Source of the DNA: a bacterium
GTDB lineage: Bacteria > Verrucomicrobiota > Verrucomicrobiia > Limisphaerales > UBA8199
NCBI GenBank assembly: GCA_021784555.1
Contig: JAJYHY010000005.1
Location: 1 to 60,961, forward strand
Reading direction: 5' to 3'
DNA length: 60,961 nucleotides
Below, one piece after another: positions 4,678-31,132 of this stretch; the stretch's first letter is position 1; every line of letters begins with the position of its first letter. The notes beneath the pieces were generated by a model. That model saw only the letters and a list, made by a program, of their open reading frames with translations, made no database searches and was not told the DNA's origin. The translations under genes were made by a program, and so were the position numbers.

Positions 4678-5496
4678 TTAGCGCCTTAGCAAATGCTGAC
4701 GGGCCAGTTGGACCCGTTGCTCGGGGGTGAGATCTGCGAACGGTTCCCTCGGTGTGGGCAAGCCTATTCCCAAATTCGAGCCGCGGAAGGCAAAGTAGAT
4801 CGTCCATTTGCCACCAACGGCTCGCGCCGCTCGCGCAGCGGAATCGGGCGTTGCCGCCAAATCCCGCGTCGCGCCATTTGAGTTGATTCGGGCGCTCAGA
4901 GAAGTCTCCGCCACCAACTCTTCGGCCGCTCTGGAGATCACTCGCGGTCGGTCATGGACGGGCCCCGATGCGTCAGGCAGCGGGCCGCCTGCCCGCCAGC
5001 GCATGTAAGGCTTCAGCTTCCGCTCCGTTAATGGAGGCGAATCAGCGCGGAAGTCAGATCGCGAAGGAGGGAGAGGACCGACGCTCTCGGGCACTTCGTC
5101 GGGGCCAGACAACTTCGGCGCCAGCCTCGTCCAGCCAGCCGATTCGAGCTTGCCGTCTCCGCGCAAGGCTGAATCGAGCGCCTTGAGGGCGCGGCTCGAG
5201 TCATAAACCGCATAGACGGTGGACCATCGCGCGCCGGCTTGCTCGGCAATGCGGTCCAGGACGGAGCGGAGAGGCGCATCCTTAACGTGAAGCGTGATGC
5301 GGGCATTTACACTCTTTTCAGCGCGGATCTTCGTCCAGGTCTGCTCTTCGATTTTGCGAAGAACCTCGGCAAGCGAAACATCGCGGAGGTCCAATGTCAC
5401 AAGTTGACGGTGGGCACGCCAGGCGGCGTGGCCGAACCATAGCCCGCCGACGGCAAGCAAGATGCCAATAATCATTACCAGGTGTTTTGGTTTCAT
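4678..5496 (-). CDS. Membrane-anchored protein with an STN-like domain
   Basis: A 272-residue protein from the ATG at 5496, which has AAGG five bases upstream; an ATG at 5568 gives a longer form. The N-terminus has a signal anchor ([15 protein letters not shown]). Residues ~35-100 read [17 protein letters not shown] and [20 protein letters not shown], the two-repeat pattern of the STN domain (secretin/TonB short N-terminal). The remainder is low in recognised features and ends with [20 protein letters not shown] domains occur in secretins, FecA-type receptors and FecR-like regulators. Its position next to a pseudopilin gene suggests a secretion-linked periplasmic role; this is inference. Confidence 0.62.
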
Positions 5497-5571
5497 TACG
5501 CCTTGATTTGAATTGTTTACGAGTTCATTTCTCGCGGGCACCCGCGGTGAATCAATGTCGGCGAACATCCG

Positions 5572-5892
5572 TTAGTAGTGAGACAACTCTCGTGGGCCAG
5601 CGGGCGTGGCTCCCTCGGGAATACGCACACCGGCGCCACCGGGCACGGCTCCGCCCGGCAAGGGAGCAGCAGTGCCGGTAGGACCTAATTCTGTTTTGGT
5701 TTCCAAGGTATTGAGCGCCATCTTGAGTTGGAATAATTCTCCCGCCGCCTCCGGTGACTTCGCCCACGACGGTGACACGCTTTGAGGTGATGCGACCGCC
5801 TTGGCCTGACTCAATAGGGGTGCTCCTACCAGCAAAGAAATGCCCACCGCCATACTGGCGCAAAAAGGTTTTGTTCTCATTTCAATGTTCAT
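5572..5892 (-). CDS. Small secreted protein
   Basis: A 106-residue protein with a signal peptide (FCASMAVGISLLVGAPLLSQAKA) and a proline/glycine-rich tail. It begins at ATG 5892, or ATG 5880 if MRTKPF is the true start. It lies upstream of the STN-domain gene on the same strand, 75 bases from its chosen start, so the two may share a transcript with the pseudopilin. No family was recognised; the LFQLKMALNTLETKTE helix is the only structured-looking part. Confidence 0.5.
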   Translation of the reverse strand: MNIEMRTKPFCASMAVGISLLVGAPLLSQAKAVASPQSVSPSWAKSPEAAGELFQLKMALNTLETKTELGPTGTAAPLPGGAVPGGAGVRIPEGATPAGPRELSHY

Positions 5893-6043
5893 GATCCGTC
5901 GTTCGTCTTCGCCGCGACAATTCGCGCTGAGTATGGAGGTTCTACGGCTGGACGCGAATGAGCGGGGATGAAATGTGATGACTTGCCGACGAGTCGGGTT
6001 GAAAAGCCGATGAAGCAGGGTGGGCGCCGGGCGCCTCCCCCGC

Positions 6044-6808
6044 TCAGGTCACTCCCATGCGGCGCTGTAATTCCGCGAGGGTGCAGGTCATGCTCAAGCG
6101 AGCGCCGCTCTTCAGGAGAAGGCAGAATTCCCCAGGCGCTACCAAAGGCTCCAGCCGCGCAATCCGGTTCAGGTTGACAATCGCTGACCTGCTGATGCGC
6201 ATAAAACCGAGCGGGCTAAGCCGGACCTCCATCGCGGCCATCGTCTCCCGTACGATGTGCCGATCCTTGCCCACATGCAGAATCACGTAATTGCCGGCCG
6301 CCTCTACGTGGTCAATTTCCTCGGCCTTGACGAAGAGAATGTGCTCGGCGGATTTGACCAGGATGCGCGGCGCGGCAGGTTGCAGATTTCGCAGGCCGGC
6401 CAAGAGCGTTCCGAGTCGGGCGTCGGTTCCAGTGCCGGAACGTAGGGCCAATTGTTGGCGCGCCCGTTGCAGGGCCTTCTTGAAGCGTGCGCTCGTGAAG
6501 GGCTTGAGCAGGTAATCCAACGCGTTGACCTCGAAGGCGCGAATGGCGTGTTCATCGTAGGCGGTGGTGAAAATGACCAAGGGCATCGCTTCCGGATCGA
6601 GGGCCTCGATCACGTCAAAGCCGCTGAGCTCGGGCATTTGCACGTCCAGAAACAGCAGATCCGGCCGGTGCCGTTCCACCGCGCGGACGGCAGAGGCGCC
6701 GTCGGCGCACTCCTCGGCAATCTCCACGTCCGGCTCTTCAGCCAGGAAAGCTTTAATCCCTTCCCGGGCGAGAATCTCGTCATCCACGATAATCGCCCGG
6801 ATTTTCAT
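6044..6808 (-). CDS. LytTR-family response regulator
   Basis: A 254-residue response regulator. The receiver domain has the acidic pair VDDE at residues 9-10, the phospho-acceptor Asp55 in LLFLDVQMPE, the threonine in FTTAYD and the lysine in LLKPF. A LytTR DNA-binding domain fills residues ~155-250 (VEAAGNYVILHV, MRISRSAIVNL). The family binds direct repeats upstream of target genes. It overlaps the 3' end of the histidine kinase gene by 4 bases, the usual arrangement for coupled expression of a LytS/LytR-type pair. No target is evident nearby. Confidence 0.93.
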   Translation of the reverse strand: MKIRAIIVDDEILAREGIKAFLAEEPDVEIAEECADGASAVRAVERHRPDLLFLDVQMPELSGFDVIEALDPEAMPLVIFTTAYDEHAIRAFEVNALDYLLKPFTSARFKKALQRARQQLALRSGTGTDARLGTLLAGLRNLQPAAPRILVKSAEHILFVKAEEIDHVEAAGNYVILHVGKDRHIVRETMAAMEVRLSPLGFMRISRSAIVNLNRIARLEPLVAPGEFCLLLKSGARLSMTCTLAELQRRMGVT

Positions 6809-12760: not shown

Positions 12761-13728
12761 TCAGCGTGAGACCGTGGCCGCTGCGTCAGGCGTTTGAGGC
12801 CGTAATCGGGTGAATCCGCGACCCGGAATCTTGGAGGTGGCAGAGGGAACGAAGTCGATGATCCGATGGCCATTTGGCCCAATGGCTGAAAGGCCAGATA
12901 CATCGGAGGCTTCGAACCAGTGGCCGGTGAGCGAGTTGGTCTGCGCCTGCATGTGACACACGATGTTGGCTGGCCAACTGAGGATGACCGTTCCGTTCGG
13001 CTATGCACTCACAGAAAGCGCCATTGGCGCGGTTTGCCCATAAACCCGCACATAATCTACCAACATCTCCGCCGGAAAAGTGGTCCCTGCCTCGATTTGT
13101 GCCACGGCCGGATTGCCGACATAGGTCCCGCCGACTGCCAGGTTCAGGATGAAAAAGAATGGCGCGTTGAAAGGCACCCCCATGCTCTGGGTTTCATAAA
13201 GCCTGCCGTCCACCAGCCACCGGATTTCGCCAGAACTCCACACCAAATCATAGATGTGCCAGTTGGTCACTGAGTCGGGGCTTGTGAAGTAGTACCTGGC
13301 TGTCACATTGCCGGAGTTGGAGTGCAGGCTCCCCTGCACCCAATCCGGTTGATCGCCATTGTTCTCCACCACGTCAATCTCTCCGCAGGCGGGCCAGCCG
13401 ACCGTCGGGAAATCCTTCCCGAGCATCCAGAGGGCCGGCCATAGGCCCGTCCCGGCCGGCAATTTGGCCCGCCATTCGAAGCGCCACTGAACTCGTCGCT
13501 CCACACAATGTTGGTATCGGCCTGCGCGCCATGGCTTGTCCATATCCAGACGGCGACCATCACCACCAGGGCAAACAGCTTAAGCCCCCCGCGTTTGCGC
13601 CGTAAGATCGGCTCTGGCAGGCGACCGGCAAGATCCTGGAAAACGCCTCCGAAGTCGCCCAGCTCCCGGTGGAGAACGATAAGGCGGTGAGCAAGTCGGC
13701 GTGTCATGGCCTTTGTCCGAAACCTCAT
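12761..13728 (-). pseudogene. Glycoside hydrolase family 16 gene, deleted and interrupted
   Basis: Reading leftwards from ATG 13728 (TGATG overlap with the upstream gene), a signal segment (LFALVVMVAVWIWTSHGAQA) leads to TNIVWSDEFSGA, the start of a GH16 domain. At about 13470 the reading changes frame and family sequence resumes ~80 residues later at WRFEWRAKLPAGTGLWPALW, followed by the catalytic motif GEIDVVEN and the C-terminal strands to VDYVRVYG. A TAG at 13001-13003 stops the frame, but the same frame continues with GTVILSWPANIVCHMQAQT, a typical secreted verrucomicrobial C-terminal module. GH16 enzymes cut beta-1,3/1,4-glucans or galactans. An out-of-frame deletion plus a stop make it non-functional as read. 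Confidence 0.75.
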
Positions 13729-23404: not shown

Positions 23405-25315
23405 TCAACGGACGCTTTCTTGGCTTGATTGGAAGAGATGGCTGCTCTTCGCCGCCTTCTCAAACAACATTTGGCTTAGCCCAAAGGAGAGCGGATAGCG
23501 TGGCCCACTGCCCGGGGTTGCCAAACTCCAATAGCCGACTCGGCCCTTGCGGCGAACAAGACTGACGGAAAAGGTCCAATCCGGCGCTTCGCCGATGAAC
23601 TCATCAGGGCGGGATGCGGCGGAACTCTCATCTCCAGCGTGCGCTTCCGCAGGCGACCAGATTATCACCCCCTCCGAGAGGACGCGACGTACCTCATTCT
23701 CAACCTCGGCGCTGGTTCGCACATTGCCGAATCCTATGGTGTAGTGTTTGTTGCGAACCCAGACCTCGACCGTTTTGGGGAGCCTCGAGGCCGGGACCTG
23801 GAGCAGGCAAATGCCAGTATATCCGATATGTCCGAGATTGGAAATTCCAATCGCGCCCCGGAACAGAACCCTGATTTCCTGGCCCGCCGCATCCCAGGCT
23901 TTAAGGACAACATCATTGCTTGTGGGATGCTCTGGCATGGGAAAGCTGGTCAACTGCATGGAGTTAGTGTTAAGCGAGGGGTCATAGAGCACCCTGGCTC
24001 CAACGTGTCCGACATTGGAACCTGCGGTGACTATGCCTTTGGCAATGACCGGTGCCTCGTCAGGGGGTTCTTCCGATGTCCTTTCGGCCAGCTTGTAACG
24101 AATCTTCACGCAGCCAGGCTCGCTGGCCAGACCAAGAATCTGGAGAATGCCCCTTCCGCCCTCGCGCGTCAGAAACAGGTAGGTATCCGGCTTGCCCGGC
24201 GCCGCTACGATTTGGTGCATCCGGCGCGGCGCCGTGTGGTTGAGATGCCAGTCTTCCACCACGTCACCGGGAGTCACCGTCTCCCAGCCGTTGGTGGGGG
24301 CTGGAGTGAGCACCATATCAAACCCCAACAGCACAGGGACATGGAGGCCCCTCGGAATGGCCATCCCCTGTAGCGCGGTGGCCGGGGCGATCTCGGCGAC
24401 GACATCCATGCCGTTGGTAGCTATCCAGTCGTGGCCGGCGCGAGTCTCCCAAGCTATCGTCGAATGCGTTTCCGCGTGACGCAGGTCGAGGTCCAGCCAG
24501 GACGGCCATGTCGGCTTGCCCGGCACTTGGCCGGGTGGGGCAGGTGGAAAAGCCGGCAGGATGGTGTCCACGGGATACCTGAAAGTCCAGGCTTGCCTCG
24601 TGCGGACCACAGCGCGGTTGAGGCAATCCACAATTGTGAGAGCCATGTGCGGAGCATGGTCGTCGGTAATGACTTCCTTTCCGCCGCGGAGTGGACCCCG
24701 GATCGTGAAGACCGAAAGGACGAGCTGGCCATGGTAAACGATGGCCAGCCGGCGATTGATATTCGTGGCCGAGATCGCCGTAAAGGCTTGTGCTCCCGCC
24801 GGAGTGAATTGCACAACGATCTGGCGCCGCCCATTCGATGAGAACTCCAGGCCCGCCTGGCTCACCGCCGACCCGTCGAGCAACACCTTCCGAGAGACGC
24901 GGATCATTTCGGGAGGGTGGACCTGTCTGCCATGGGGGTAAGGGAGCTTGTCCGCAGCTTCGGACGATTCTGCTGGGAGCACCAGGCGGAATTACAGGGC
25001 CTCGGCATGCTGGTTCGATGTGGCCGGCCCGGACCGGTCCGGTTCCTGCGGGGGACTGAAGCGGTCTTTGGCCAGGTCCGTCGTGTTCTCCATCGGGCTT
25101 CCATCCCTGTTGCTGATCCCAAGGGGGACGGACGAGGGATCAGCCGCCCGGCTTGGGAAGCCGGGCAACAGAAGGAAGCCCAAGCCCAGGAAGGCGGTGG
25201 TTATGGAGGCCGAAAGGCGATACGCCCGAAGAGGACGGTGCCCTATGCCCTGCTCAACGCGGGGGGTCACGGAGAATGACCCGGAGGTGGCCGAAGGAAA
25301 AACTGTGGTCTTCAT
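23405..25315 (-). pseudogene. SecDF-P1-head-like protein gene with an in-frame TAA
   Basis: From ATG 25315 the frame encodes a signal peptide (SASITTAFLGLGFLLLPGFP) and reaches EAL at 24995, a TAA at 24992-24994, and then continues in the same frame FRLVLPAESSEAADKL. LxFRLV is how a SecD P1-type domain starts, and the following part matches it: VSRKVLLDGSAVSQAG, then VQFTPAGAQAFTAISATNIN and RLAIVYHGQLVLS. A CAA-to-TAA change fits best. The remaining ~400 residues are beta-rich and unassigned. If read as two genes, the second would start at GTG 24982 without a signal peptide. It begins one base after the upstream gene's stop. Confidence 0.65.
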
Positions 25316-25316
25316 C

Positions 25317-25847
25317 TCATCTCTGCCAATTTCGACAATATAACCTCTGGTATCGCCGAATGAAATCTTCGTAACTGGCAGGCTCGTCTCGTTTCATGCG
25401 GAGCATCTGCGCGAGCTTTTCGGAGGCCTCGATCATCAGCCGCTTCATTTCCTCGTCGGTGATGCGGCTGTAGCCAGGCTGGCTCAGTACCGGGGAGGGC
25501 TTGCCGGCGTGCAGGTCCTCCAGAATCCCGTTCCGGAATGCAAAGGCGGTGAGCGCATTTGCTTCGTCGCGGAGGGTGAACTCACCTTCAGAAATCCGGG
25601 AGATCTCCGTCAAGTCTCTATCGGACCGCGTGACGTCTTCCTCCGTGGCGACAACCGGACATGCCTTCAGGAAGGCTCTCCTGCCGCACCGCCCCGGCCC
25701 GTACTGGTCGTGCCACACCACGGTGTCGCCCTCAATGGCGTCTATCTGGCGGATGAAGAGCCTGTTGGCGTGGAGGTAGCGACCTCCGACAACCAGGTCG
25801 TTTGGCGTAAGCTTCGCCGTGTTCGGCGGCGGTTTGGGCGTTTCCAT
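25317..25847 (-). CDS. Hypothetical protein, 176 aa
   Basis: A protein with no recognised family. The N-terminal half looks like a small beta-barrel (LVVGGRYLHANRLFIRQIDA, then GDTVVWHDQYGPGRCGRRAF), the middle is acidic, and the C-terminus is helical with ITDEEMKRLMIEASEKLAQM. No signal peptide. Its stop is one base before the start of the SecDF-P1-like gene, so the two form a coupled pair; it may be a cytoplasmic partner. Confidence 0.6.
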   Translation of the reverse strand: METPKPPPNTAKLTPNDLVVGGRYLHANRLFIRQIDAIEGDTVVWHDQYGPGRCGRRAFLKACPVVATEEDVTRSDRDLTEISRISEGEFTLRDEANALTAFAFRNGILEDLHAGKPSPVLSQPGYSRITDEEMKRLMIEASEKLAQMLRMKRDEPASYEDFIRRYQRLYCRNWQR

Positions 25848-26072: not shown

Positions 26073-26102
26073 TAAGGCGGCGGTAATAAATAAAGGTATC
26101 AA
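26073..26102 (+). repeat. Left terminal inverted repeat of the IS
   Basis: Thirty bases beginning TAAGGCGGCGGTAATAAATA, an exact inverse of 27448-27477. Confidence 0.85.
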
Positions 26103-26204
26103 GTCGGGGTATTCTCGCAAAGGATCTTGGCGACTACAACGTATTGTGTGGCTGGGCCTATCCTGATACAATACGTAGCGGCCTGGAATCCGACACTTTG
26201 CTTA

Positions 26205-27416
26205 CTAACGGCTGCGCTGATGGGGCTCGATCACGTAGTTCCACTCTCCGTGGAACGTGTTGCGCCGCAGGTTCACCTCCTTCATCTCCTGGGCGCTCAC
26301 CTTTCTGCCCGTCGGATACTGGCGGCGATCCAGCCGACAGGTCACGCTCAGTCCTTTGGCGGTCGTGGTCCTAGCAATCAGGTTCACGATGGTCTGGTAG
26401 TCTCGCAACGGTTCGCCTCGCCAGTTAGAGGAAATGAACGAGAAGAGTCGGTGCTCGATCTTATTCCACTTACTGGTGCCCGGCGGAAAGTGGCAGACCG
26501 ACAGGGATAACCCGCTCTCATCGGCAAAACGCTGCAACTCCAATTTCCAAAGTCGCAGACGCCAACCATTGCTGCCTCCGCCATCGGCGGTGATGAGCAG
26601 CGTCTGAGCATGCGGATAGATCGCTCGGCCTTCGTAGCGCCACCAGCCCCCGATCGACGCCACCGCAAAAGCCCCCGTGTCGTGGTCCGTCCCCACGTTC
26701 ACAAATCCGGTGTTCCGTCCGATATCATAGATCCCATACGGATAGGCCCGAGGCACCTCCGGAGCCGCAAAATCGTGCCCTTTGACCCGTGTCGGGTGCT
26801 TGGCCACCTGCCACTGCTGCCCCCCATTGGCGTAGTTGCCCACCAACTCCTTCTTCTTGGTGTCCACCGAAATCACCGGCGCCCCTACCCTCAGCGCCCG
26901 CTTTACCGCATTCTTGATATGCCGAAACTGCGCATCCCGGTCCGGATGGTCCTCCCCTTCCTCCAGCTTACGGTTGCTTTGCAGACTGTAGTCCTGCTCG
27001 TGGAGCAATTGGCCCACCCGGACATAGCTCACGGGGTGACGCCGCCGCGTCAATTCGGCCGCCAGGGTGCGCGTGCTCTTGCAGACCCAGCGCAGCGGCG
27101 ACTCGGGATCGCCACGAGTGCCGCCTTCAATCAACTCATCCAGCGCCGCCGCTAATCCCGGATCCAGGACTTTGAGGTTCTTGCGTCCCGCCCCCGGGCG
27201 CCGGATCCGCTCGGCCAGTGAGGAGTCTCCGGCTTGAATCTCGCCAATCCCCTTGGCGATGGCCTTCCGAGACAGCCCACAGGCCCGGTGGACCAGGGAG
27301 ACCCCGCCATACCCCAACTGCATCGCTTCGTTGGCTGCCGTCAAACGTCTCGTCCGCTCATTTAACAGCGGCCAAATGGCTCGCAACTTCTGCTTCAGCA
27401 TCGCGATAGGACTCAT
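26205..27416 (-). CDS. ISAzo13-type DDE transposase
   Basis: A 403-residue transposase, apparently intact. An N-terminal helix-turn-helix region (LVHRACGLSRKAIAKGIGEI) is followed by the catalytic domain: first aspartate in VISVDTKKKELVGNYANGGQ, second in LLITADGGGSNGWR, and glutamate in FPPGTSKWNKIEHRLFSFI. These are the hallmark segments of the ISAzo13 family. It cuts and joins the element ends. Starts at ATG 27416 or 27401. The intact frame suggests the copy was mobile recently. Confidence 0.92.
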   Translation of the reverse strand: MSPIAMLKQKLRAIWPLLNERTRRLTAANEAMQLGYGGVSLVHRACGLSRKAIAKGIGEIQAGDSSLAERIRRPGAGRKNLKVLDPGLAAALDELIEGGTRGDPESPLRWVCKSTRTLAAELTRRRHPVSYVRVGQLLHEQDYSLQSNRKLEEGEDHPDRDAQFRHIKNAVKRALRVGAPVISVDTKKKELVGNYANGGQQWQVAKHPTRVKGHDFAAPEVPRAYPYGIYDIGRNTGFVNVGTDHDTGAFAVASIGGWWRYEGRAIYPHAQTLLITADGGGSNGWRLRLWKLELQRFADESGLSLSVCHFPPGTSKWNKIEHRLFSFISSNWRGEPLRDYQTIVNLIARTTTAKGLSVTCRLDRRQYPTGRKVSAQEMKEVNLRRNTFHGEWNYVIEPHQRSR

Positions 27417-27447
27417 CCGTGGTCATCCTACCACAACGTATCCAAAG

Positions 27448-27477
27448 TTGATACCTTTATTTATTACCGCCGCCTTA
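27448..27477 (-). repeat. Right terminal inverted repeat of the IS
   Basis: Thirty bases ending TTTATTTATTACCGCCGCCTTA when read on the plus strand (last 22 bases shown in part), the exact inverse of the left end. Confidence 0.85.
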
Positions 27478-28335: not shown

Positions 28336-28462
28336 AGTGTTGGACGAGGAAAGGCCCAAGGGGGGGAGCCTCTGTGCGGCCCGGGCGGCGCCAAAGCCCG
28401 GACCGACTGAGGGCCAATTTGGGTGTTACCTTTTGGGGGCCGGTGCCGATTCTCTTTGTGGA

Positions 28463-31132
28463 ATGAACGGAACGGACTTATTGGCTCAGTACCGAGAGAC
28501 GCAGGCAGACGGGCCGTTTGGCGAGCTCGTCCGCCGCTACACCAACCTCGTCTATTCGGTGGCCAAGCGGCGCGTCTGGGACCTGGCGCTTGCGCAGGAG
28601 GTGGCGCAACTCGTCTTCATCCGGCTGGCCAAAGCGGTTCCGAAGTTCCACAGCGATGCCGAACTGGTGGCATGGCTGCACCGCACAACCGTCCACGTCT
28701 CCATCGACCTCTGGCGCTCCGAAAGCCGAAGACGCTTGCGGGAAGAGAAAGCCGCCGCCATGCAACCTGACCGCACCGAAAATGATTCCTGGAATGAAAT
28801 CGCCCCCACCCTCGACGAAGCCCTCAACGGGCTGGAGGAGAAGGACCGGCAGGCGCTGCTGCTCCGGTTCTTCGAGCAAAAGACCATGCGCGACCTGGGC
28901 CTGGCGTTGGGCGTCAGCGAAGACGCGGCGAAGATGCGGGTCAGCCGGGCCCTGGACCGGCTGCGCACCCAGCTTGGAACATTAGGCGTGACCTGCGCCG
29001 TGGCCGCGTTGACCACGCTCCTGTCCGAGCGGTCGGTGGAGGCCGCCCCGAGCCAACTGGCCGCCGGCCTGGCCTCTCGTCGGTTTGCGGCGCGCGCAGG
29101 GGCAGGAGCGGGAACCGGCTTGCTCGGGCTGGTGCTCCAGGTTTCCAAGGGCAAATTGGCGCTGGTATCGGCAGCTCTTGTCGTCGGCGCGGTGTTATTC
29201 CTGGCCCACTTGCTGAGCAATCCGACTCGGGGCCCGAAGAGTCAGAACGGTCAGTCGATTGGCTTGACTCAGGGGACAAACCCCGGCGCTCAAGCCGCCG
29301 CCACCAGCGGCGCCGAGACCAACGGCCTTGAAGCCCAGGCCCAGCCGGACCCGGTCAAATTGCTTGAGGGAATCGAGCAAGCCCGCTTGCGGATTGTTAC
29401 CGGCTCAATGGAGTTCCAGGTCTCCCATGTCGAGCTCCGCGGCAGTCGCGCCAGCACCAACGTGGTGCGAGTCAAAACCCTGTTCGACGGGGAAAAGCGC
29501 CGAGTCGAATCCTTTTCTCGTGAGTACGCCTACACGGCCGTGGGCGAGGACGAAACGAAGGCCCAGGAAGCCAAGATGCGCGCCCAAGGGCTGGACCAGG
29601 AAGAAGCGGTGCGCGCCGGCTTGCTCAAGGCCTTTGCGTCCCACCATGTCACGGTTTATGACGGAACCTCGGTGATGGATTATTGCGAAACCAGTGATTC
29701 AGACCATCCCTCGGCGGAGATTTCCGATCCGCGCAAGGGATTTGGGGGCTATCTGTTTGATCCGCACTGTCTGGGTATCACGACTATCTTGTCCCTGTAT
29801 CCCGGCGGGAGCGTCGGGTGGTGGTTGGGTTTGAGCGGGCCGGAATCCGCCAGCCTCGTGGGCGAAGAGACAGTGGACGGGGTCCTGGCTTGGCACATTC
29901 GCGTGCCGCCGGCAGGACAACGATGGGGTACGCGCGACATTTGGGTCGATGCAGCGCATCCGGTCCGTGTCCTTCAGTTTGGCTGGAACGGCGACACCAC
30001 CACGTCCACTTACGATCCATCGAGCGCCGAAGACCCGTTCCCCACCGCCATTACCACCGTGAGTTACAGACACGGGCACCCTATCACGCAGCAGTCGGTC
30101 GCGCGCACGAAAACACAATTGGGCATTGAGGTCGATCCGGCGTCCTTTACCCTCGCCGGGCTGGGGATGAAGGTGGGAACCGACGTCTGCGACGACCGCA
30201 TCAGCAGGGGAATCGGCTATTGGACAGGGAGCGGCCTTTCGGAAAACCTTCCGTGCAAAACGGCCAAGTCCCAGCCTCCGCCCAATCGCACCGAGTTGAT
30301 GGACCTGTTGGCGACCGAACCCGGCACGCCCGACGCCCTCCGGGCCGCGCAGTGGATCATTTTCAACACGCCGGATGGGCCGGACGTGGACCAGGCCGCG
30401 GCGGTGATCGTCAAGAACCATATCCGCGACGCCAACCTGGTGTATCTGAGCGAGCAATTGGAGCGGATGCGCCCCTCCTGCTCCACGATTCTGCTGCAGG
30501 CGATGATGACCAAGAACCCGCATCCGGTGGTCCAGGGTAACGCCTGCTATACACTGGCGGTATTGTCCAAGGCCAGCGCGGATTACGGTAAGAACAAGAA
30601 GGCGACCGCTGAGGCGACGAAGCTCTTCGAGCGCGTCATCTCGGACTTCGGCGACGTGAACAGAAACGGCGCCCGGCTGGCGGACCTGGCAAAGCCGGAG
30701 CTTTATGAACTGCAACATCTTCTCATTGGCATGCCGGCCCCGCAGACTCGGGGTGAAGACCTGGACGGTCAACCGCTGGACCTGGGCGATTACCGGGGCA
30801 AGGTCGTCGTTCTCTATTTCTGGAGCGCGGGCTGCGCGTACCCTGACGATGTGGAGCCGCTGCGCAAGCTTCAGGACCGGATGGCCGGCCAACCGTTTGC
30901 TATCCTTGGCGTTCATGCCGATGACAATACCGCCAAGGCCAAAGCGGTTGCCAAAAAGTGCGAGATGAGCTGGCCCTCCTTCCGCGACGCCCGCCAAGGG
31001 CCGATCGCCACCGCCTGGAATATCAAAGGCTGGCCCACGATTTATGTCCTGGACCGCAACGGCATCATTTGCTACCGCGGGTTTCGAGCCGACGGGCTCC
31101 TCAAGCCGGTGGAGAGCCTGGTGAGGCAATGA
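28463..31132 (+). CDS. ECF sigma factor fused to a transmembrane and thioredoxin-like region
   Basis: An 889-residue protein from ATG 28463. Residues ~15-85 are sigma region 2 (FGELVRRYTNLVYSVAKRRV, LVAWLHRTTVHVSID), ~115-175 region 4 with a helix-turn-helix (KTMRDLGLALGVSEDAAKMR). A hydrophobic helix lies at ~231-251 (KLALVSAALVVGAVLFLAHL), so the remainder should be outside the cytoplasm: an unassigned 450-residue part and a redoxin/TlpA-like domain from ~755 (LDGQPLDLGDYRGKVVVLYF, WSAGCAYPDD). The domain keeps one cysteine of the usual CxxC. One chain thus links promoter choice to a periplasmic sensor-like domain. The sigma part is in one frame with no indel. Confidence 0.86.
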   Translation: MNGTDLLAQYRETQADGPFGELVRRYTNLVYSVAKRRVWDLALAQEVAQLVFIRLAKAVPKFHSDAELVAWLHRTTVHVSIDLWRSESRRRLREEKAAAMQPDRTENDSWNEIAPTLDEALNGLEEKDRQALLLRFFEQKTMRDLGLALGVSEDAAKMRVSRALDRLRTQLGTLGVTCAVAALTTLLSERSVEAAPSQLAAGLASRRFAARAGAGAGTGLLGLVLQVSKGKLALVSAALVVGAVLFLAHLLSNPTRGPKSQNGQSIGLTQGTNPGAQAAATSGAETNGLEAQAQPDPVKLLEGIEQARLRIVTGSMEFQVSHVELRGSRASTNVVRVKTLFDGEKRRVESFSREYAYTAVGEDETKAQEAKMRAQGLDQEEAVRAGLLKAFASHHVTVYDGTSVMDYCETSDSDHPSAEISDPRKGFGGYLFDPHCLGITTILSLYPGGSVGWWLGLSGPESASLVGEETVDGVLAWHIRVPPAGQRWGTRDIWVDAAHPVRVLQFGWNGDTTTSTYDPSSAEDPFPTAITTVSYRHGHPITQQSVARTKTQLGIEVDPASFTLAGLGMKVGTDVCDDRISRGIGYWTGSGLSENLPCKTAKSQPPPNRTELMDLLATEPGTPDALRAAQWIIFNTPDGPDVDQAAAVIVKNHIRDANLVYLSEQLERMRPSCSTILLQAMMTKNPHPVVQGNACYTLAVLSKASADYGKNKKATAEATKLFERVISDFGDVNRNGARLADLAKPELYELQHLLIGMPAPQTRGEDLDGQPLDLGDYRGKVVVLYFWSAGCAYPDDVEPLRKLQDRMAGQPFAILGVHADDNTAKAKAVAKKCEMSWPSFRDARQGPIATAWNIKGWPTIYVLDRNGIICYRGFRADGLLKPVESLVRQ

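Follow-up and report, generated by a model that had tools for sequence, protein, structure and literature searches.

An in-frame TAA in a verrucomicrobial P1-domain gene most likely marks gene decay under the standard genetic code

A minus-strand gene divided by a single in-frame TAA, in a genome of the order Limisphaerales, is probably in decay, having lost its 5′ part and then gained a nonsense mutation. Ordinary gene decay, rather than a change in the genetic code, is the most likely account of the locus. The window, by which we mean the whole stretch of 60,961 nucleotides that was analysed, is contig C588 of an 8.8-Mb genome that is 87% complete and divided among 658 contigs. The minus-strand frame opens at an ATG (25315–25313), runs for 107 codons to the TAA (24994–24992), and continues for 528 further codons to a TGA (23407–23405); with the TAA taken as Gln, it becomes a single frame of 636 amino acids. 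An earlier note on this DNA had described one frame split by TAA at these positions, and our map of open reading frames bore it out.

Read from its 5′ end on the minus strand, the gene is a succession of dissimilar parts. No homology was found for codons 1–18 (25262–25315), which contain the junction with a part derived from an M56 protein, the tblastn match of a paralog on contig C44 starting at 25261. Next come the remnant of the C-terminal transmembrane helix of an M56 (BlaR1-like) protein (25130–25261, edges approximate), recognized by its match to the M56-bearing locus L050, and a variable linker (24995–25129) that ends at Leu 107. The TAA (24992–24994), which takes the place of a residue that homologues mostly have as Gln, is followed by a SecDF P1 domain (24614–24991), assigned by both Pfam and predicted fold, with PF22599 covering residues 27–112 after the stop. 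A 'REGG' domain (24083–24592) without a Pfam match, for which a HmuY-like fold is predicted, and 225 C-terminal codons (23408–24082) without a Pfam family match complete the frame. Position-specific GC after the TAA (0.635, 0.491, and 0.688 at the three codon positions) was inside the range of 18 ORFs compared; before the TAA it was 0.598, 0.579, and 0.766, with a high second-position value that fits a Pro/Ser-rich linker.

Homology that runs across the stop ties the two halves together. The C44 paralog, from the same genome, aligned with residues 24–216 in one open frame (50% identity, E = 1.4e-31), and stop-free matches in four genomes of the same order began at residues 87–104, upstream of the stop, and extended to residues 412–420 with 40–51% identity. 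Because homology spans the stop in the paralog as well as in the four genomes, the two halves constitute one split gene, beyond what chance would produce, which backs the proposal of the earlier note that this is a single gene with one in-frame TAA in the strand reading L-x-FRLV. (An initial scan for related loci with a single protein had yielded 18 pattern matches and no relatives.)

With the stop position masked as X, the site was covered in 19 of 30 distinct alignments, which had Gln in 12, Glu in six, Ala in one, and a stop in none. Repeating the count with one search per locus again gave 30 distinct alignments, 19 of them at the site (51 rows before deduplication). Some P1 frames seen elsewhere are left out of this count, either because no row was obtained for them or because the site was not reached; a motif scan of such frames, from which several chance motifs were excluded, returned Gln in five (L004, the first copy in L006, L018, L020, and L040) and Glu in L011 (the same place as L043). 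Four of the six Glu cases were in frames of 848–892 amino acids, which are SecDF-sized and which we infer to be SecDF. In the five closest homologues the residue was always Gln, encoded by CAA in C44, G228, and G282 and by CAG in G058 and G137. The earlier suggestion of a Gln at the stop position thus stood up to comparison with the closest homologues, the site being mostly Gln and the genome's own paralog having CAA. No relative sharing the stop was found in the 19 site-covering alignments, the search having covered 58 relatives, none of them of the same genus.

The P1 head matched PF22599 with 50.9 bits against a curated cut-off of 27, the sole Pfam match in the gene, and residues 1–127 after the stop in the predicted model superposed on the P1 domain of SecDF (3aqo_C) with a Z score of 15.2 (120 residues aligned, rmsd 2.6). 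A full-length SecD with its membrane domain was not found: the NCBIfam secD profile scored 33.5 bits against a cut-off of 244.4 and matched 91 residues. When nine homologue frames were scanned, P1 was present in eight, fused in six to a Ser/Thr kinase domain and in two to an M56 (BlaR1) peptidase domain; the ninth (L053) had no family match. The label 'SecDF-P1-like gene', given to the locus by the earlier note, therefore cannot be kept, since the SecD membrane domain is missing and eight of the nine scanned relatives are P1 fusions with a kinase or M56 domain.

What had been taken for a signal peptide is, by homology, the last transmembrane helix of an M56 protein. The helix (25130–25261) gave an ungapped match to residues 321–366 of L050 with a score of 93, where shuffled sequences reached at most 52 and 56, and at the DNA level the region was 72% identical to the C44 M56 gene over 79 bases (25150–25228). 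We aligned the first 107 residues locally with 18 M56-bearing loci (16 from an M56 search, plus L050 and L051), and the score exceeded all shuffles only for the two loci that hold the C44 copy. Peptidase_M56 (PF05569) itself was not matched in the window protein, of which only the final helix aligns. A tblastn search of the window with the C44 protein found one convincing counterpart, for residues 321–496 (E = 6e-33, the next being 0.006), and the matches beyond the gene itself (E = 0.006–0.86) were spread across the window on both strands; among the best six rows from each of two tblastn searches, with the C44 and C112 M56-P1 proteins, none pointed to a displaced M56 piece in the window. Because the helix matches the C44 M56 protein and the M56 body is absent, we conclude that the gene descends from an M56-P1 protein minus its 5′ part.

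Upstream, also on the minus strand, lies an ORF of 176 amino acids (25317–25847) from a small unnamed family, whose TGA ends one base before the ATG at 25315. It had no Pfam or NCBIfam match, and homologues were found in 4 of 292 other genomes. A gene-order argument built on this ORF was rejected, its homologues in G287 and G093 having, as judged by eye, no P1 gene in flanks of ~1.5 kb; no P1 match was found in L145 or L146, the loci of upstream-ORF homologues. Further upstream is a minus-strand insertion sequence (26073–27477), with a transposase ORF (26205–27416; PF07592, DDE_Tnp_ISAZ013) and 39-nucleotide inverted repeats that are 90% complementary. Its proximity may serve as a contextual point for decay, and a role in the loss of the M56 part is only conceivable. 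Beyond it, on the plus strand, a 931-amino-acid frame (28337–31132) combines regions 2 and 4 of an ECF sigma factor with a thioredoxin-like domain of the AhpC/TSA type.

As expected of a pseudogene, the stop lies within a region that homologues translate, and the M56 domain of the closest own-genome paralog, C44, has been lost, with only its end left in the window. Decay beyond the stop itself is not visible. The 528 codons after the TAA contain no second stop and no frameshift, and 68 of 82 columns that are invariant in four homologues are kept in the window gene; the 14 deviating columns are within the range that the same test gave for other homologues (6 of 74, 5 of 73, 3 of 71, and 27 of 95). 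The TGA-G-ATG junction with the upstream ORF resembles ordinary gene spacing, which counts against decay. By our estimate, the 528 codons would have acquired at least one more stop with 95% probability once neutral substitutions reached about 0.065 per site. Three readings fit these undamaged codons: in our ranking, a recent stop comes first, an erroneous base second, and a downstream part that remains in use third. We rank them so because the stop was seen in no other genome of a set without same-genus genomes.

A wrong base, or a chimeric join in the metagenome assembly, would make the true gene an intact, shortened, membrane-anchored protein with P1 and HmuY-like domains. The fragmentation of the assembly and its 87% completeness speak for such an error, as do the undamaged remainder of the frame and the conserved columns that it keeps; yet the absence of the M56 part is independent of the base at 24992–24994, and one base error does not account for other frames that look broken, namely the frame change on C44 and the remnant of a GH16-like gene. 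We therefore consider an assembly error unlikely, though worth keeping in mind.

The C44 sister copy looks likewise broken. At L050, PF05569 is matched from position 80 only, and inspection by eye of the copy (at about 4800–6640 of G000:C44:9000-20000) placed its start in another frame and showed its 3′ end continuing into a frame resembling, and which we take to be, an orotate phosphoribosyltransferase. Elsewhere in the genome, G000:C113:33051-33795 matches M56 twice, in separate open frames of 402 and 339 amino acids, with the second and weaker match below the curated cut-off; it is possibly another broken M56 copy. The GH16-like frame (12764–13543, minus strand) is in the window itself, with a TAG (13001–13003) in its linker. 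In the part at 13001–13543 the domain is matched from profile position 44 only, and past the TAG, which falls in a variable linker, similarity to relatives goes on. This TAG had been put forward as a second Gln-like site. The stop is real, but among the five relatives taken for comparison the position is a gap in two (L140 and L141) and Leu in one (L142), L143 having no matching frame and the L144 alignment ending before the TAG. That two stop-interrupted frames with truncated starts occur in one contig fits decay better than recoding.

Could the interruption instead be functional, with low-level readthrough of the TAA or a restart at GTG 24982 supplying a regulated amount of the sensor part? 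Belinky et al. (2021; PMC7918605) propose regulated, conserved in-frame stops for bacteria and report dN/dS below 1 around many in-frame stops; in the window gene, the downstream 528 codons are open and similar to homologues. Against it, the same stop was seen in none of the 19 site-covering alignments (58 relatives searched, none of the same genus). The base after the TAA is T, and the closest GAGG, located by eye, lies 17 bases before GTG 24982. A product restarted at that GTG would be without a membrane anchor and would be missing the beginning of the P1 strand. On balance we regard a functional interruption as improbable.

More doubtful still is a pair of separate genes, one encoding a 107-amino-acid membrane peptide and the other an independent downstream P1 protein. 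The order does have stand-alone P1 proteins with leaders (L018, L020, and L042), in which the leaders look hydrophobic by eye, the strand reads F-Q-(I/M/L)-R-L, and the protein begins ahead of that strand; the downstream part in the window, unlike them, is leaderless. The first start available to it, GTG 24982, falls inside the P1 strand, and in the C44 paralog a single frame holds both parts. The earlier note had named one case as speaking against a split gene, a homologue beginning at FRLV and bearing a signal of its own; we looked for such a homologue and found none. We give the two-gene arrangement very little credence.

The genome encodes two release-factor frames, one of 372 amino acids with a PAT motif and one of 365 with an SPF motif, plus a short third one; we take PAT to denote the RF1 type and SPF the RF2 type. 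All 61 tRNA matches lie on 55 loci, for which ARAGORN made 63 calls, none of them a stop-reading tRNA; one locus yielded no call, some tRNAs may be counted twice where loci overlap, and the survey covers a genome that is 87% complete. The terminal stops of 18 chosen ORFs of the window were ordinary: TGA in 12, TAG in five, and TAA in one. A changed code was rejected on these three grounds, and the code is standard as far as a genome of this completeness permits, a missed tRNA being conceivable. The earlier judgement that a changed code is unlikely was thereby strengthened. A reading of TAA and TAG as Gln has in its favour that the window contains two such stops within frames and that relatives mostly have Gln at one of them, but it is scarcely credible given both types of release factor, no tRNA with anticodon TTA, CTA, or TCA found, ordinary terminal stops, a TAG at 13001 that is not Gln in relatives, and bacterial code changes that, according to the introduction of PMC8629427, all reassign UGA among those known at that time.

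The decay that we favour would have proceeded as follows. The ancestor would have been an M56 (BlaR1-like) membrane protein with SecDF-P1 and HmuY-like domains outside the membrane; the M56 origin and both domains are evident at the locus, and we infer that all three were once in one protein. Loss of the peptidase-coding 5′ part left only the last transmembrane helix, in a frame that now starts one base past the stop of an unrelated gene. The interim product was perhaps a membrane-anchored protein of P1 and HmuY-like domains, as the intact reading frame of 528 codons suggests. A nonsense mutation would then have placed the TAA in the first β strand of the P1 domain, and translation from the ATG at 25315 would at present, with the standard code, give a 107-amino-acid membrane peptide without the sensor domains. 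The change may be recent, or the downstream part may have had little time to drift.

The part of the gene that the stop cuts off has an interest of its own. When we modelled the post-stop segment with five homologues (mean pLDDT 78.8), residues 135–304 after the stop resembled HmuY-type proteins in the predicted model (Z 7.9–10.0). Modelled alone with nine rows, the second domain reached a pLDDT of 88.9, and its eight best structural entries had Z scores of 8.0–10.6 (rmsd 2.7–3.9, 124–134 residues aligned), the next being 3.1. Four of the eight are titled HmuY or HmuY-like, and the other four, PinO, BfrB, BfrC, and BF2707, are presumably HmuY homologues. Foldseek alone gave a weak result for this domain (best E = 0.037), no Pfam match was found in nine members even at E = 10, and sequence identity in the HmuY structural alignments was 6–12%. 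The alignment of the domain contains no invariant histidine. The segment at 24083–24592 is thus predicted, from the models, to have a HmuY-like fold. Among 116 genomes of the order, at least 30 carry it with an E value no higher than 1e-5, in at least 51 matches, none with a stop inside; these counts are a lower bound, since no more than 32 candidates were scored in the richer genomes. It often sits in long frames.

These observations suggest, tentatively and at somewhat under even chances, an outer sensing cassette not described before, P1 plus a HmuY-type fold, that is mounted on varied verrucomicrobial signalling proteins and of which the window gene would be a copy in decay. The carriers of the cassette would include Ser/Thr kinases, as in five relatives, and, judging by the remnant, BlaR1-like M56 peptidases. 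If so, both domains might bind, on the outer side of the membrane, a ligand or a peptide and relay the signal inward. Among the titles listed in literature searches on P1 fusions with kinase or BlaR1/M56 domains, and on HmuY in Verrucomicrobia, none concerned such fusions. Other settings of P1 were also seen. In L010/L044 (G012:C317) and L041 (G200:C296) it forms the C-terminal end of frames that by eye resemble sigma factors, and in L010 the sigma-like start runs directly into P1, as after a deletion. L018, L020, L042, and L059 (G000:C531) encode small stand-alone P1-like proteins whose leaders appear by eye hydrophobic or lipoprotein-like.

What looked like a hint of stop recoding in this genome is thus accounted for by a decaying gene or an erroneous base, and the two in-frame stops of the window should not be pooled as Gln sites. 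The P1 and HmuY-like cassette is a more interesting by-product than the stop. Within the order, the P1 domain of SecDF recurs as a detachable module, in kinases, M56 proteins, sigma-factor-like frames, and stand-alone proteins, and in several cases it adjoins a predicted HmuY-like domain for which there is no Pfam model.

Among known systems, the P1 domain of SecDF and SecD (PF22599; Thermus SecDF structures 3aqo, 3aqp, and 5yhf) resembles the window gene in the sequence of the P1 head, in predicted fold, and in the L-x-FRLV strand; the window gene, however, has no SecD membrane domain, and its relatives mostly have Gln at the site that is Glu in four SecDF-sized frames. With M56 proteins of the BlaR1/MecR1 type it shares, through the match to the C44 M56-P1 paralog, the last transmembrane helix and linker, but it retains no peptidase domain. 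The verrucomicrobial Ser/Thr kinases (in G058, G228, G282, G137, and G044; L150–L154) have P1 followed by the same HmuY-like domain, with 31–51% identity; they differ in carrying a kinase domain on the N-terminal side and in having an unbroken frame. Finally, the in-frame stops of Belinky et al. (2021; PMC7918605) are likewise single stops in otherwise open, conserved frames, but that study focuses on stops common to at least two species, whereas the TAA described here was seen in one genome only.
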